Shown piece by piece: positions 14,432-27,207 of a stretch of 64,000 nucleotides of DNA. Source of the DNA: Parvibaculum sp. (GTDB lineage: Bacteria; Pseudomonadota; Alphaproteobacteria; Parvibaculales; Parvibaculaceae); assembly GCA_030645235.1 (NCBI GenBank), contig JAUSMV010000030.1, forward strand, positions 1,054,001 to 1,118,000, in the 5' to 3' direction. A program made the translations under genes and the position numbers. Every line of letters begins with the position of its first letter. The first letter of the stretch is position 1. The notes below the pieces were generated by a model that saw only the letters and a list, made by a program, of their open reading frames with translations, had not been told where the DNA came from and did no database searches.

Positions 14432-15379
14432 TTAGCGGATCGCTTGCCCGAAGTAGGGTCGCGCCAAACGAAGTGCCGTGCCGTCCTGTGCTATAGCGGC
14501 AAGCACACCGTCCACATCCGCCCGCAACTCCTTGTCTTTCGAGCGCAACGCGATGCCAGCACCTTGCCCGAAAAAAATCGGATCGTCGTAATCACCGCCC
14601 ACCATCCGGCAGCACCCATCACCCCCGCCACGCTTCATCCAATTCAAAAGCGCATTGCGATCAGCAAAAACGAGATCGGCGCGACGATCAATAACGGCGG
14701 CTTCCGCTTCATCAAGCGAGGGCAGCGACAAGAGTGTTGCGTCCGCAAAACGTGCTTTCAAAAAAGCCTCATGTGTGCTGCCGGCCTGCACGGCAATGGT
14801 TTGTGTGGCAAGCGAGCCTGCGCTCAGCCCCAAAGCCTTGCCGTCGCGACGCGCCGCAAAATGTCCCGGTGTCCTATAATAGGATTTAGAAAATGCAATC
14901 TGCTTACCCGCCTTCACACCACTACTGCCTTCGGTCGGAATAAGCATGGAGGCCACCACCATATCGCCTTCATCACGCTTCAGTGAGATCAGAAGTGACT
15001 TCCACGGGCGCGCTTCGATGACACAGGCGCGCTTCAGACGCGCACAAATCTCGTTTGCCATATCAATGTCAAAGCCGACAAGCGCGCCCGAACTGTCGCG
15101 CCCGTTGAACGGCGGATAGGCACCTTCTGTCAGCACGCGCAATTTTGTTTTGGCGACGGGTGCGACCGGTTCCGTTTCAGCCTGTCCGGACCCTGTCAGC
15201 GGCGCGGGCGCTTTCAATGCGGGCACAGGTCTTTGGATTTTAGCGTCCGGTGCAGCCTTAAAGTAATCGGCCAATACTGCGTTCTTGCCCCATGGAAGAG
15301 CCACGCCCTCATACATCTGCGCCAGCGCTCCTGCGATGGTCACAATGACAATCAGATTGAAGTAGAGCAGCGCACGCAT
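14432..15379 (-). CDS. Family 3 solute-binding protein, membrane-anchored or exported
   Basis: The 315-residue protein begins with a hydrophobic segment (MRALLYFNLIVIVTIAGALAQ) without a lipobox, then a Pro/Ala-rich linker and a periplasmic SBP_bac_3 domain. The domain start LRVLTEGAYPPFNGRDSSGALVGFDIDMANEI is characteristic of polar amino acid binding proteins. No permease or ATPase gene is adjacent, so it may serve a distant ABC transporter or act as a sensor. The gene converges with the SixA-like gene. Confidence 0.82.
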   Translation of the reverse strand: MRALLYFNLIVIVTIAGALAQMYEGVALPWGKNAVLADYFKAAPDAKIQRPVPALKAPAPLTGSGQAETEPVAPVAKTKLRVLTEGAYPPFNGRDSSGALVGFDIDMANEICARLKRACVIEARPWKSLLISLKRDEGDMVVASMLIPTEGSSGVKAGKQIAFSKSYYRTPGHFAARRDGKALGLSAGSLATQTIAVQAGSTHEAFLKARFADATLLSLPSLDEAEAAVIDRRADLVFADRNALLNWMKRGGGDGCCRMVGGDYDDPIFFGQGAGIALRSKDKELRADVDGVLAAIAQDGTALRLARPYFGQAIR

Positions 15380-15680: not shown

Positions 15681-17723
15681 ATGACGCAGAAAGACATTGA
15701 TCTTTCGAGCGATGGAAGCGTTTCGAGAAATGCACCGCGCTTGGAGGCAACGCAACTCAGCGAATTCCCGGAAAAACGCACCGCATTTAACTGGCAAGGG
15801 GGACATCGACGTCGGCCTCTGCTAGGTGAGCTAGCCGTACGCGCGGGCCTCATTGAGCAAGGTCCGCTCGACTATCTGGTACGCCGCCAGAACCGCACAG
15901 GCGAGCGCATCGGCGAAGGTCTTGTGAGTTCGGGCGGCGTACGCGCTAAAGATCTCGCGCGACTCTTATCGATTCAGTCCCGTTCCAGCTTCATCGACCT
16001 TGAGAAACAGCCGCCTGATCCGACGCTTTCCGATTACCTAGATCTCGACCAGTATATCGAGCATCAATATTTGCCTTGGCGCAGGATCGATCGCGAGGTG
16101 GTCTATGTCGCTGCCGACCCCGCTGGCGTCCGGGCGCTCATTGAGGCGCGTGAGGACCGGCCTTGCCTCATCTATGTGGTCACACCTAAAGCGATCCGCC
16201 GCGCTGTACAAGCTCTCTTTCAAAGGACGCTCGACGAACGTGCGCGGCTATCGCTTGCCCACAGCATGCCTGAAAGCTCCGCCCAGCACCGCTTCGGCGG
16301 CGCACAGGCTGCTATCTTTCTCGCGCTCTTTATCAGCTTCACCACACTTTCTTATGTCGTACCGCGGCTGATGCTGACCGCTGTCAGTCTTGCCTTTGCA
16401 CTCTGCTTCCTGTCGATCTCGGCGCTCAAATTTTTGTCGATCTTCATCGGACCACGCGTCAGTGATCCGTTGAAGAACAACGAGCCGCGTGCAAACACAC
16501 CCCCGACCGATTTCAGCTTGCCGGTCTATTCGATTCTCGTACCTCTTTTTCGAGAGGCGGCTGTCTTGCCCATTCTGGTCGAAGCCCTTAGCCGCCTCGA
16601 TTATCCCGCTACCAAAGTCCAGACCCTTCTGATCTTTGAAGAGAGTGACGCAGAGACAATCGCGGCAGCTAAGACGCTTAATTTGCCTGACAATGTGGAG
16701 TTCCTCTATGTACCCCACTCATTGCCGCTCACTAAGCCAAAGGCCTGCAACTACGCCCTGAACTTCGCACGCGGGGATTATCTTGTTGTTTACGACGCGG
16801 AGGATATGCCGGAACCGGATCAGCTCCGCCGCGCGCTTGCCGTCTTTGACCAAAATGATGAGAACCTAGCTTGCGTACAAGCCCGTCTCAATTTCTACAA
16901 TCAGTTTGAGAACTGGCTGACGCGCCAGTTCACGCTTGAATATGCCACCTTCTTCGATCTCCTGTTGCCTACGCTGGAAAAGCTCGGCCTGCCCATTCCG
17001 CTTGGCGGCACATCAACCCATTTTCGCACCAAGGCCCTCAGAGAGGCCGGCGCATGGGATCCGTTCAATGTAACCGAAGATGCTGATCTCGGTATGCGTT
17101 TTGCAGTGCTCGGTATGCGCACAAGCACCATTACGTCTACCACTTATGAGGAAGCCAATTGCCAAATGGACAATTGGTTGCGTCAAAGATCGCGTTGGAT
17201 CAAAGGCTGGATGCAAACCTATCTCGTGCGTATGCGCCACCCGGGGAAGCTCTGGCGCGCGCTCGGCCCGCGCGGCTTTATCGGCTTTCAGATCGTTATT
17301 GGCGGCTCATGTCTCGCCAATCTGATGCATCCTATTTTCTATATCGCGCTGATTGGCACCATATTCAACGACTATGCTCAATTGGGCATAGTGAGCCTGC
17401 CCTTCCATGACGGCTACATCACAACCCTCAATCTGATTACTCTCGTCGCGGGCTACGGGATGTCAATTTCAGCCGGTATGGTTGCGGCCTCGGCACGCGG
17501 GCTTCGTCCTCTGATGCTCACCGCCATATCAATGCCAGCTTATTGGATACTCATTTCGTGGGGTGCCTACAAAGCTCTCTTCCAATTCATCTCGCGGCCT
17601 TCTCATTGGGAAAAGACTGAACACGGCATTTCACGTTACTGGGCGCTGCAACATGCCAATGCAATGAGGAAAATCACCCGTCGAAATACGCAAAAGCGGA
17701 GTATGTCAGTAACTCCGCGCTAA
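15681..17723 (+). CDS. MshEN-domain glycosyltransferase family 2 (predicted c-di-GMP-controlled polysaccharide synthase)
   Basis: A 680-residue protein counted from the ATG at 15681, which has GGCGAAAGG upstream; the track start at 15654 is a GTG. Residues 47-70 and 76-99 are two 24-residue MshEN motifs (LLGELAV...Q and RIGEGLV...Q) separated by exactly five residues, the arrangement that binds cyclic di-GMP in MshE-type domains. Membrane helices around 210-255 precede a GT2 domain with DAED (372), TED (465) and QRSRW (502). Three or four C-terminal helices follow. It is probably a processive inner-membrane synthase of an unknown exopolysaccharide, similar in parts to NfrB but with the MshEN domain at the N-terminus. 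Confidence 0.85.
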   Translation: MTQKDIDLSSDGSVSRNAPRLEATQLSEFPEKRTAFNWQGGHRRRPLLGELAVRAGLIEQGPLDYLVRRQNRTGERIGEGLVSSGGVRAKDLARLLSIQSRSSFIDLEKQPPDPTLSDYLDLDQYIEHQYLPWRRIDREVVYVAADPAGVRALIEAREDRPCLIYVVTPKAIRRAVQALFQRTLDERARLSLAHSMPESSAQHRFGGAQAAIFLALFISFTTLSYVVPRLMLTAVSLAFALCFLSISALKFLSIFIGPRVSDPLKNNEPRANTPPTDFSLPVYSILVPLFREAAVLPILVEALSRLDYPATKVQTLLIFEESDAETIAAAKTLNLPDNVEFLYVPHSLPLTKPKACNYALNFARGDYLVVYDAEDMPEPDQLRRALAVFDQNDENLACVQARLNFYNQFENWLTRQFTLEYATFFDLLLPTLEKLGLPIPLGGTSTHFRTKALREAGAWDPFNVTEDADLGMRFAVLGMRTSTITSTTYEEANCQMDNWLRQRSRWIKGWMQTYLVRMRHPGKLWRALGPRGFIGFQIVIGGSCLANLMHPIFYIALIGTIFNDYAQLGIVSLPFHDGYITTLNLITLVAGYGMSISAGMVAASARGLRPLMLTAISMPAYWILISWGAYKALFQFISRPSHWEKTEHGISRYWALQHANAMRKITRRNTQKRSMSVTPR

Positions 17724-17735
17724 GATTTTCAGGTG

Positions 17736-17792
17736 ATGCTGGGGCATTAGGTGAGTCACCCATTAAATCCTCGCGAGCGCATACCCCAGCAT
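17736..17792 (+). repeat. Inverted repeat whose 3' arm contains the start codon of the next gene
   Basis: ATGCTGGGG (17736-17744) and CCCCAGCAT (17784-17792) are perfect 9-bp complements, and the second arm includes the AU of the response regulator start codon. An 11-bp palindrome, GGTGAGTCACC, lies inside the loop (17750-17760). In RNA the structure would bury the start. No Shine-Dalgarno sequence is visible here. Confidence 0.45.
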
Positions 17793-18333
17793 GTCAGCCA
17801 AACCGACAATCATCCCGAAGCCCACGCAGAATGCCTTCGACAAGAAGGTCTATGAAAACCTTAATGTGATGGTGGTCGAAGACGCGTCGTATATGTCGAG
17901 TCTCATCTGCGGCATATTGAAATCATTGGGTATTGGCCGCATTTTTGAAGCCCGCAACGGCTCGGATGCACTTGATATTCTCAACACCCAAGCCATTGAC
18001 ATGGTGCTGATCGATGACCTTGCGCCGCCGCTCGACGGCCTTAGCGTTGTCAAAAAGATGCGCATGTCAGAAACCTCCGGTTGCGGATCCCCCGTGATCC
18101 TTCTCACCGCCAAACCACAACAGAGCGAGATTTTTGCGGCCCGCGATGCCGGTGTCACTGAAGTTCTTTCCAAGCCTTTTTCCGCCGCTCAGATCATCAC
18201 ACGCATTGAAGCCGTGCTCGCCAAGCCACGTCCCATGGTTAAGTCGGAGGTTTTTGTTGGCCCGGACCGCCGCCGCCGCGAAAAGGCGGCGCCTGAAGAA
18301 CGCCGTACCGTCGAAAACAAACCCAAAATCTGA
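17791..18333 (+). CDS. Receiver-only response regulator
   Basis: A 180-residue protein with one receiver domain and no DNA-binding output. The acidic pocket is E30-D31, the phospho-acceptor D75 (VLIDDLAPPLDG), with T106 and K128 completing the active site, so it should be phosphorylatable. The C-terminal tail VFVGPDRRRREK is basic and is shared with the next gene. It follows the MshEN-GT2 gene by 67 bases in the same direction. The likely role is protein-protein signalling; no cognate kinase is adjacent. Confidence 0.85.
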   Translation: MSAKPTIIPKPTQNAFDKKVYENLNVMVVEDASYMSSLICGILKSLGIGRIFEARNGSDALDILNTQAIDMVLIDDLAPPLDGLSVVKKMRMSETSGCGSPVILLTAKPQQSEIFAARDAGVTEVLSKPFSAAQIITRIEAVLAKPRPMVKSEVFVGPDRRRREKAAPEERRTVENKPKI

Positions 18334-18461
18334 ACTACGTTCCATCCTGCGTACAACAGCGTAAGGTTTTGCTAACCAATTTTCCTAACCTTTTGCATAC
18401 CCCTCACGGGCATAATGCAGTTCAAGTTTCAATAAGATGAGCATCAAGGATGGTGAACATC

Positions 18462-19034
18462 ATGAGCAGCAGTGTAATCGACGAAAGCGCAACCCTGACG
18501 GAGCTTGGTCCTGACCAGCTGCGTGTCCTCAACACGCTTATCATCGTTGACAACCTGCCGATGTTCCAGATTTTCCGGGGCGTGCTTGAAGAACTTGGCA
18601 TTCACAATGTCACCCATGGCCGCTCTGCACAGATTGCCATTCAGTCGCTGATGACCGAGCCGATTGATCTTGTTATCATTGATGATTATGCACCACTCGA
18701 CGGTGTCAAATTTCTCAATCTGCTGCGTAAGGGTTCAAACAAACTGCCCCATGCCGTGCCTGTCATGTTTGTGACCGCACGCGCTGAGCGCGAACGCATT
18801 GTTGCGGCGCGTGATGCCGGCGCCAGCGAAATAATGCTGAAGCCCTTCACCGCTGCCCAGCTTCTCGCCCGCCTCACGACGACAGTAAAGAAGCCGCGCC
18901 CCTTCGTTGAATCAAATGTCTATGTCGGCCCCGACCGTCGCCGACATGCTGCCGATTGCAACTCCGTCGAGCGCCGCAACAATGACCAGGGCAATGATCG
19001 CCGCCAAATGATAAATCCTGCGGTTCTCGACTGA
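18462..19034 (+). CDS. Receiver-only response regulator, diverged paralogue
   Basis: A 190-residue protein paralogous to the upstream regulator, with the same single receiver and the tail VYVGPDRRRH. One of the two acidic pocket residues is changed (D30-N31), and the loop after the phospho-acceptor D74 (IIDDYAPLDG) is one residue shorter; T105 and K127 are kept. Phosphorylation may therefore be altered. The ATG at 18462 is preferred because AAGGA is ten bases upstream; the track ATG at 18450 abuts that sequence. Confidence 0.83.
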   Translation: MSSSVIDESATLTELGPDQLRVLNTLIIVDNLPMFQIFRGVLEELGIHNVTHGRSAQIAIQSLMTEPIDLVIIDDYAPLDGVKFLNLLRKGSNKLPHAVPVMFVTARAERERIVAARDAGASEIMLKPFTAAQLLARLTTTVKKPRPFVESNVYVGPDRRRHAADCNSVERRNNDQGNDRRQMINPAVLD

Positions 19035-20604: not shown

Positions 20605-21636
20605 CTACCAGCGGTTTTGCACTTCTTCGGCAAAACCCAAAAAGCGGCTGATCTCGAGTTTACGCCCGTCGTCCAAAACCACAAAGCCCGTGAAGTAACC
20701 AAAAACCTGATGCTGGATCGAACGCAGCAGCTTGATGTCAAAGGCCGCCGCGCGATCGATCACCGGCTCAAAGCGCATTTCAAAGCGCCCGTCATTGCTT
20801 GTGAAGCTCCATGACGCGCCATCAAACGTGCCTTGCTTTGAAGGCGGCGGCATATGGAACGTCACTTGATCGAGCTTATGCGCGCGGCCTTCATAGAAGA
20901 CCATATTTTCACTCGCCTTCGATGTGTCGCCGAACCCGTAGCCGATGTTGAAGCCGAAGCTCTTGCCGTCAACAAGGCCCGAAGCCGAACCCCAGTACCA
21001 AGTATTGTCATAGGTCCAGACACCACGCCCCCAGTCGAGCAGCCCAAACGATGCCGAAGGCTCGAACTCATAGGCCTTGCCGTCAAAGGTGATGCGCCCC
21101 GTCGCGCCCATACAGTTGATTTTCTGATTGTAATAGAACGCGCGCGGATTGCTCTGAAACGGCGTCGCGATCACCATGCGGTCCATCTCTGGTTGGCTCA
21201 GATGTATCTCGCCTTTCAGTCCCTTACCGCCCGCAAATTTAGGCGCGTCGATCAACAGCACGCGTCCGCCTTTGACATGATGAAAGGCAATGGCCATGTC
21301 GCCATGTTCGGCGACAACGTCGCCCGCATCTGCACTTTCGGGCAGGCCCAATGTTCCACGCGGAAAAGCGATCATCGGCCCTTCGGTGAAGGTGCGGGGA
21401 GAACGGAAATCCAGCCATGAGGCCGAGAGCAATCCCATATAGGAATTGTCAGCAATAGTCAGCGCAAGACCGAACTCATCGTTCGTCACACAGTAGTAAT
21501 CCCACTCCTTGATGCGATACCACGGCGCTTTGATCGCGCCACGGCGATAGCGCTTCACCTCTGCCGTCGCGTAACCGGCCTCAGCCACCGCGCCATTTGC
21601 GTCAAGCAAGTCGCCTGCGCTCAATTTGTGTTGCAC
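20605..21636 (-). CDS. DUF2804 domain-containing protein
   Basis: A 343-residue protein rich in aromatic residues and beta strands (WGRGVWTYDNTWYWGSASG, FNIGYGFGD). It matches DUF2804, a family seen in lipid-metabolising bacteria whose function I do not know. There is no signal peptide. The start is a GTG at 21636 (VQHKLSAGDLLDANG), which fits the usual N-terminus. It lies between matB and the PAP2 gene in the same orientation, with short gaps that suggest cotranscription. Confidence 0.75.
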   Translation of the reverse strand: MQHKLSAGDLLDANGAVAEAGYATAEVKRYRRGAIKAPWYRIKEWDYYCVTNDEFGLALTIADNSYMGLLSASWLDFRSPRTFTEGPMIAFPRGTLGLPESADAGDVVAEHGDMAIAFHHVKGGRVLLIDAPKFAGGKGLKGEIHLSQPEMDRMVIATPFQSNPRAFYYNQKINCMGATGRITFDGKAYEFEPSASFGLLDWGRGVWTYDNTWYWGSASGLVDGKSFGFNIGYGFGDTSKASENMVFYEGRAHKLDQVTFHMPPPSKQGTFDGASWSFTSNDGRFEMRFEPVIDRAAAFDIKLLRSIQHQVFGYFTGFVVLDDGRKLEISRFLGFAEEVQNRW

Positions 21637-25858: not shown

Positions 25859-25871
25859 TCCCACCACTGAC

Positions 25872-25928
25872 CCCGTGGTGATTTGAGCCGACCGGCTTGC
25901 GGCCACGTTAAATAAATCGCTAAAGGGT
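25872..25928 (+). promoter_or_regulatory. SAM-II riboswitch aptamer
   Basis: The stretch CGTGGTGATTTGAGCC, then CGGCTTGC, CCACGTTAAATAAATCGC and TAAAGGG, matches the SAM-II (metA motif) consensus. P1 forms between CGTGG (25874-25878) and CCACG (25903-25907), and GATTT pairs with AAATC to make the pseudoknot. SAM-II senses S-adenosylmethionine and lies before methionine synthesis genes in alphaproteobacteria. Here it precedes metZ. Confidence 0.92.
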
Positions 25929-25939
25929 CGGGTGGTTTC

Positions 25940-25971
25940 AAACCCCGGTCCTTTACAGGTCGGGGTTTTTT
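25940..25971 (+). terminator. Intrinsic terminator of the SAM-II expression platform
   Basis: AAACCCCG (25940-25947) pairs with CGGGGTTT (25961-25968), and six T residues run from 25966. The 5' arm can alternatively pair with AAAGGGTCGGGTGG, just upstream at 25922-25935, as an antiterminator. When SAM is bound the AAAGG segment should be held near the aptamer, favouring termination. Confidence 0.85.
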
Positions 25972-26028
25972 GTATTTTCGGCCTCCCCACGCGGGAACCG
26001 GCCCTCAAGGCAGACGCAGGTGAACACC

Positions 26029-27207
26029 ATGACCAAGACCCTCAGGCCCAAAACAGCCCTTGTGCATGGCGGAACGATGCGCAGCCAGTTCGGCGAGACG
26101 AGCGAGGCGCTCTTCCTCACGTCGGGCTATGTCTATGAGACCATGGAAGCAGCGGTGAAACGTTTCACCAATGAAGAGCCGGGCTTCATCTATTCGCGCT
26201 TTGCCAATCCGACGATCCGCATGTTTGAAGAGCGCATGACGCTGCTTGAAGGTGCGGGCGATGCGCGCGCAACTGCCACCGGAATGGCGGCCGTGACCGC
26301 GGCGCTTCTGTGCTGCCTCAAGTCAGGCGACCATGTGCTCTCCTCACAGGCACTCTTTGGCTCCTGCCGCTTTGTTATCGAAGAGCTGCTGCCGCGCTAT
26401 GGCATCACCTCGACGCTTGTTGACGGCCGTGATCTCAAAGCATGGAAAGCCGCGATCCGCCCCAATACCAAGATCGTCTTTCTGGAATCACCGTCCAATC
26501 CGACGCTCGAAATCATCGACGTGCGCGCGGTCGCAGACATCGCGCACTCGGTCGGCGCGCTCCTGATGGTTGATAATGTGTTTGCCACCCCCATCCTCCA
26601 GCGCCCGCTGGAACTCGGTGCTGACATCGTCGTCTATTCCGCGACCAAACATATCGACGGTCAGGGTCGCTGCCTTGGCGGTGTGATCTTGTCGTCGAAA
26701 GAATGGATCGCCGACAATCTGCATAATTTCATGCGCCAGACGGGCCCCTCCATCAGCCCGTTCAATGCCTGGGTAATGCTCAAGAGCCTTGAGACGCTTG
26801 ATCTCAGAGTGCGCGAACATTCGCGCAATGCGGAAGCGGTTGCCAACTTCCTTGAGACGCATCCCAAGATCGCCCGCGTACTCTATCCCACGCTGGCATC
26901 CCACCCGCAGCACAAGCTCGCCATGAGCCAGATGAACATGGGCGGCGGCATTGTCGCTTTCGACGTTGCAGGCGGACAGGCGGGCACGTTCCGGTTTGCC
27001 AATGCGCTAAAAGTCATCAAGATTTCCAATAATCTCGGAGACTCAAAAAGCCTCATCACGCACCCTGCGACAACAACGCATCAGCGCCTGACCGAAGAGC
27101 AGCGCGCCGAAGTCGGCATCAATGCAGGCACGGTGCGACTTTCGGTCGGTTTGGAGGATGTTCAGGACCTGATAGAAGATCTGAACGCCGCACTTATCCA
27201 CGCTTAA
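26029..27207 (+). CDS. metZ: O-succinylhomoserine sulfhydrylase
   Basis: A PLP-dependent Cys/Met metabolism enzyme of 392 residues. MetZ makes homocysteine directly from O-succinylhomoserine and sulfide. Motifs include YSRFANPTIRMFEERM, the PLP lysine in VVYSATKHIDGQGRCLGG, and SLGGAESLI-like GDSKSLITHPATTTH near the C-terminus. The start is the ATG at 26029 (MTKTLRPKTALVHGG), with AGGTGA upstream; the GTG at 26020 is less likely. It is controlled by the SAM-II riboswitch about 100 bases upstream. Confidence 0.94.
   Translation: MTKTLRPKTALVHGGTMRSQFGETSEALFLTSGYVYETMEAAVKRFTNEEPGFIYSRFANPTIRMFEERMTLLEGAGDARATATGMAAVTAALLCCLKSGDHVLSSQALFGSCRFVIEELLPRYGITSTLVDGRDLKAWKAAIRPNTKIVFLESPSNPTLEIIDVRAVADIAHSVGALLMVDNVFATPILQRPLELGADIVVYSATKHIDGQGRCLGGVILSSKEWIADNLHNFMRQTGPSISPFNAWVMLKSLETLDLRVREHSRNAEAVANFLETHPKIARVLYPTLASHPQHKLAMSQMNMGGGIVAFDVAGGQAGTFRFANALKVIKISNNLGDSKSLITHPATTTHQRLTEEQRAEVGINAGTVRLSVGLEDVQDLIEDLNAALIHA

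Follow-up and report, generated by a model that had tools for sequence, protein, structure and literature searches.

A GT2 membrane synthase of Parvibaculum with an N-terminal MshEN domain, a likely cyclic di-GMP switch

The N-terminal MshEN domain of a 680-residue membrane glycosyltransferase of Parvibaculum is likely to bind cyclic di-GMP (c-di-GMP), perhaps tightly, to judge from its sequence and modelled fold. It is rather probable that the protein as a whole is an inner-membrane polysaccharide synthase of the GT2 family, probably processive, that is activated by c-di-GMP. The gene lies in a 64,000-nucleotide stretch of DNA (the window), and its features and neighbours are collected in Table 1. 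We infer activation rather than inhibition, a processive mode of action, a beta-glycan or amino-sugar polymer as product, and functional roles for the neighbouring proteins, one like a solute-binding protein (SBP) and two CheY-like.

Table 1. Features of the synthase locus, in coordinates of the window
Feature	Position	Strand	Evidence
MshEN-GT2 membrane glycosyltransferase, 680 aa	15681..17723	+	ORF translation, profiles, AlphaFold, Foldseek
MshEN motif I, residues 47-70 (LLGELAVRAGLIEQGPLDYLVRRQ), Leu at position 1	15819..15890	+	Sequence, NF053729
MshEN motif II, residues 76-99 (RIGEGLVSSGGVRAKDLARLLSIQ)	15906..15977	+	Sequence, NF053729
C-terminal MshEN subdomain, residues 103-183	15987..16229	+	PF05157, N-domain model
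First membrane-helix pair, residues 207-226 and 228-260	16299..16460	+	AlphaFold secondary structure; membrane placement inferred
GT2 catalytic domain, residues 283-509; DAED 372-375, TED 465-467, QRSRW 502-506	16527..17207	+	Profile, alignment, Foldseek
C-terminal membrane helices, residues 521-567, 578-605 and 613-638	17241..17594	+	AlphaFold model
Family-specific WEKTEHG motif, residues 643-649, past the last membrane helix	17607..17627	+	70-member alignment
Divergent SBP_bac_3 protein, 315 aa, N-terminal signal or anchor	14432..15379	-	BLAST, profile
CheY-like single receiver protein, VGPDRRR tail, 67 nt downstream of the synthase stop	17791..18333	+	
Second CheY-like receiver protein, VGPDRRR tail	18450..19034	+	

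The original prediction gave the ORF, its translation and the residues of the two motifs exactly, including the 24-5-24 register set by the linker NRTGE. The ATG start is preceded by a ribosome-binding-like stretch (GAAAGG), and a GTG nine codons upstream is a possible alternative. A reading of the locus on the opposite strand was rejected, the minus strand being interrupted by stops in the frame read. Rfam shows no c-di-GMP riboswitch in the synthase leader, its sole matches within the window being a SAM-alpha riboswitch and a tRNA, and a scan for promoters and terminators at the locus gave no more sites than shuffled sequence. The SAM-alpha riboswitch (25865-25943, plus strand, 78.8 bits) lies just upstream of an ORF (26020-27207) whose translation, on reading, resembles O-succinylhomoserine sulfhydrylase. 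Elsewhere in the window a DUF2804 protein (20605-21636, minus strand, 445 bits) lies with the gene of an AMP-binding ligase on one side and a PAP2-like gene on the other, the latter assigned from reading its translation.

That the N-terminus is an MshEN domain, as had been proposed, is supported by hidden Markov models, by sequence profiles against the PDB and by the predicted fold. The NCBIfam model of the MshE-related c-di-GMP motif, NF053729, matches residues 48-99 over nearly its whole length (E 1.7e-8, 34.1 bits), and PF05157 scores 38.6 bits on the subdomain that follows, above its cut-off of 23.1. A phmmer search of the PDB finds the PilF N-domains (GSPII) at E 3.1e-17, and a profile built from 21 N-domains of the family finds PilF, PilB and MshE there at E 1e-51 to 1e-17. 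As a baseline for chance, in a set of 6,601 unrelated ORFs from the loci analysed a relaxed tandem pattern occurs in none and a contact-only pattern in one, as against 39 ORFs of the family. Profile, fold (a bundle of helices with an alpha-beta subdomain, as MshE and PilF have) and the pair of 24-residue motifs with a five-residue linker all place the domain within MshEN. What counts against c-di-GMP binding is that the NF053729 score falls 4 bits short of the curated cut-off of 38 and that three residues, Ala52 and Val67 (motif I, positions 6 and 21) and Gly86 (motif II, position 11), deviate from the consensus of Wang et al.; the other departures from that consensus are Leu47 (motif I, position 1) and Ile77 (motif II, position 2).

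The modelled fold points towards binding. The N-domain alone is modelled by AlphaFold with a pLDDT of 92.5 and superposes on c-di-GMP-bound PilF GSPII-B and MshE with a TM to target of 0.79-0.83 (5htl 0.80, 8pe0 0.79, 9glg 0.83), compared with 0.66-0.68 for apo PilF and 0.53-0.65 for the non-binder XpsE. By analogy with MshE and PilF, the cytoplasmic domain would take up one c-di-GMP between its two motifs, with Leu47, Leu63, Val67 and Ile77 stacking against one guanine, Arg76, Leu48, Leu92 and Leu96 against the second, and Gln70 and Gln99 holding the ribose-phosphates. The bound nucleotide may then alter the packing of MshEN on the membrane-bound catalytic domain, and this change could allow chain synthesis and extrusion via the membrane channel. 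The ligand is very probably present in the host, since its genome (3.83 Mb) gives matches above cut-off for 10 GGDEF, 8 EAL and 4 PilZ domains; the synthase is the only MshEN protein that it encodes.

The leucine that opens motif I, in place of the usual arginine, had been taken as a possible sign of lowered affinity, but the evidence does not support this. K167 of the T. thermophilus PilF GSPII-B domain lies 23 places before Gln190 and is thus the equivalent of motif I position 1. Arginine in its place raised the Kd from 6 to 150 nM and leucine lowered it from 6 to 2 nM; the same study extends the MshEN consensus to (R/K/L)LG (PMC11731258). Leucine also stands at this position in 23 of the 24 aligned members of the genus. 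Taken together, the PilF affinities and the genus-wide leucine remove the support for weaker binding. The N-terminal MshEN synthase would be a natural test of whether a position-1 leucine gives tight binders outside PilF.

A different role for the domain has nevertheless to be weighed, in which MshEN is a structural or assembly module, for dimerisation or the docking of a partner, that has lost c-di-GMP binding as XpsE has, the enzyme being controlled otherwise, for example by the CheY-like proteins. This we consider unlikely. XpsE does provide a precedent without binding (PMC5013675), the NF053729 score is under its cut-off, and a sister group of the family lacks the contacts: in 29 members, mostly Hyphomicrobiales (Afipia, Rhodopseudomonas, Methylocystis, Rhodomicrobium and others), Asp, Ala and His stand in for the Gly and Gln contacts, yet the N-domain is still homologous (hhalign probability 98.9% over 152 columns, with weak matches to PilF and PilB). 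Against it, the resemblance of the model to bound PilF and MshE is joined by the conservation seen in Parvibaculum, where neither the four key glycines (Gly49, Gly56, Gly78 and Gly85) nor Gln99 vary, and 22 of 24 members retain Gln70. The contact positions are also more constrained than the rest of the domain, with a mean entropy within the genus of 0.68 bits as against 1.50 for the remainder of the 53 residues (p 0.0013, a guide only, as the alignment rows are related). Outside the genus, the contacts also score as intact in the other Parvibaculaceae (all six members) and in members from Gallionella, Bryobacteraceae, Bacillota and Rhodobacterales.

The family tree, read as unrooted, needs three changes of the intact-contact label, and loss of the contacts in the Hyphomicrobiales would be the simpler reading of it. 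Since the domain is retained in this branch without its contacts, MshEN is likely to have a c-di-GMP-independent role as well, for which the contact-free sister group provides a natural control. In the Hyphomicrobiales loci the MshEN domain is cryptic: it retains the fold but is usually missed by PF05157.

The catalytic part is more readily placed. In a 70-member family alignment most of the columns that hold DAED, TED and QRSRW are invariant or nearly so, bearing out the assignment as a GT2 synthase, and Q-x-x-R-W is invariant. So are W643, E644, K645, T646 and H648 of the WEKTEHG motif. The full-length AlphaFold model (pLDDT 89.9, with the 70 family members in the alignment) has a disordered tail some 37 residues long that leads into the MshEN domain, a pair of helices and the GT2 domain; beyond these come an interface helix (496-517) and three long helices, and the chain closes with WEKTEHG and one more helix. 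It confirms that membrane helices flank the glycosyltransferase domain on both sides, and the protein therefore combines DxD, TED and QxxRW with flanking helices, as do processive GT2 enzymes of the BcsA/HAS type.

In a Foldseek search of the PDB with this model, hyaluronan synthases and BcsA rank first. A non-processive, c-di-GMP-controlled GT2 enzyme that transfers sugar onto a lipid or protein carrier, of the dolichyl-phosphate-mannose-synthase type, would fit the match to the archaeal mannosyltransferase PcManGT (TM to target 0.66) and the lack of polymer-export genes in the neighbourhood, but is improbable, given that the invariant Q-x-x-R-W is a signature of processive GT2 enzymes, that cellulose and hyaluronan synthases are amongst the best matches in both sequence and structure, and that BcsB-like subunits adjoin relatives with the same domain order. 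The last point also supports the identification as an exopolysaccharide synthase.

The original prediction of a synthase with no nfrA-like or export partner beside it stands in part. No homologue of NfrA_C or of BcsB is found anywhere in the host genome, a point that counts against the proposed synthase; what had been missed is a conserved SBP gene on one side of the synthase and the CheY-like genes on the other. The neighbours of the orthologues were tallied from BLAST comparisons with the genes of the window itself, clustering of longest ORFs having been misled by antisense ORFs in this GC-rich DNA. A divergent SBP_bac_3 homologue occupies the same place in 79 of 110 glycosyltransferase loci, some genomes being counted twice, and is found in both Parvibaculaceae and Hyphomicrobiales. 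It appears to be an orphan, with no permease amongst the neighbouring genes read in the window. In 29 of 30 Parvibaculaceae loci, one or two CheY-like genes with the GPDRRR tail lie downstream of the glycosyltransferase and share its strand, a position that suggests a link to the synthase. Similar receiver genes occur near the synthase in five other loci (L047-L049, L058 and L079), on the other strand.

These observations can be drawn together, tentatively and with some doubt, into a single picture. The protein may represent an uncharacterised, widely spread class of exopolysaccharide synthase with an N-terminal, possibly nanomolar, c-di-GMP switch, which could be joined to CheY-like receivers in the Parvibaculaceae and paired with an orphan SBP-like periplasmic protein in Parvibaculaceae and Hyphomicrobiales, and would hence be subject to more than one control. 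The Hyphomicrobiales branch would have lost the contacts and kept the domain.

The orthologous genes are repeatedly interrupted by IS1595-type elements of 3-4.7 kb, which carry a PF12762 transposase, inverted ends of 22-28 bp and passenger genes such as KilA-N. Such insertions were seen in ten loci, and a blind search of 60 genomes by element end sequence matched the synthase gene again in a further genome (G238, L140/L141). In seven loci a junction lies at the same DYP codons (residues 307-309, target GA(T/C)TATCC), and one of these loci (L099) has two different elements in tandem; other insertions are at residues 413-415 and 447-450. A second complete copy of the element was found in neither G224 nor G225, and in G227 a second copy lies inside a dprA-like gene. 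A class-wide search for the transposon terminal repeat was negative in all 190 genomes. Two explanations can be offered for the repeated insertions: a target preference for the synthase gene, or recurrent selection that favours losing its surface polymer.

MshEN-glycosyltransferase fusions are mentioned by Wang et al. 2016 (PMC5013675), but a search of the open-access literature turned up neither a paper on an N-terminal MshEN synthase nor a named protein of this architecture. Of the polysaccharide synthases that carry their own MshEN switch few have been studied, and NfrB is the one that the literature searched brought up.

The closest systems in architecture are the MshEN-GT2 proteins of Gallionella (about 42% identity) and of the Geobacillus plasmid pEF60063-1 (WJQ05460, about 38%), which have the same domain order and the WEKT-(E/D)-HG motif. 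Unlike the Parvibaculum gene, theirs lie directly after a BcsB-like gene, together with other polysaccharide genes. BcsA and PgaC share the GT2 fold, the catalytic motifs and the type of membrane channel with the synthase, but lack its N-terminal MshEN: BcsA senses c-di-GMP through a C-terminal PilZ domain, and PgaC at its interface with PgaD. The bacterial cellulose synthase complex is not a fitting assignment, the CelA model TIGR03030 scoring 48.6 bits against a cut-off of 699 in a genome without BcsB. On the regulatory side, PilF GSPII-B of T. thermophilus and the N-domain of V. cholerae MshE resemble the synthase in sequence, tandem motif and fold, and the tight-binding K167L variant of PilF has the same leucine at motif I position 1; in these proteins, however, the domain is fused to a traffic ATPase rather than to a glycosyltransferase. 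Motif II of PilF GSPII-B is one residue below the consensus length (PMC11731258).

A further comparison is with E. coli NfrB, a GT2 enzyme that makes the N4 glycan receptor and is activated by c-di-GMP; it is a characterised case of MshEN-controlled GT2 synthesis and binds c-di-GMP with a Kd of about 1 uM (PMC8669469). NfrB is likewise a membrane GT2 enzyme with DxD, TED, QxxRW and an MshEN domain, and both proteins have W-(D/E)-K-T-x-H past the last membrane helix. However, MshEN is C-terminal in NfrB, so that the proposed reversal of domain order is upheld, and nfrA lies in the nfrB operon but has no homologue in the Parvibaculum genome. The motif I of NfrB is also less canonical, with P1, Q10 and R24 as read from its sequence, and yet NfrB binds the nucleotide. 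The two glycosyltransferase domains share about 23% identity by BLAST, which is no more than the synthase shares with PgaC, and the family's glycosyltransferase profile scores PgaC at 51.9 and NfrB at 35.4 bits. The synthase matches the NfrB family model NF008411 over the MshEN part only (21.8 bits against a cut-off of 1170), and it departs from that family in full-length similarity, in domain order and in nfrA. We therefore read the two as following the same working principle with the fusion built separately. A relative with the same function and the opposite order, spread over Alphaproteobacteria, Betaproteobacteria, Acidobacteriota and Bacillota, would demonstrate that either end of a membrane-bound catalytic core can carry the switch.
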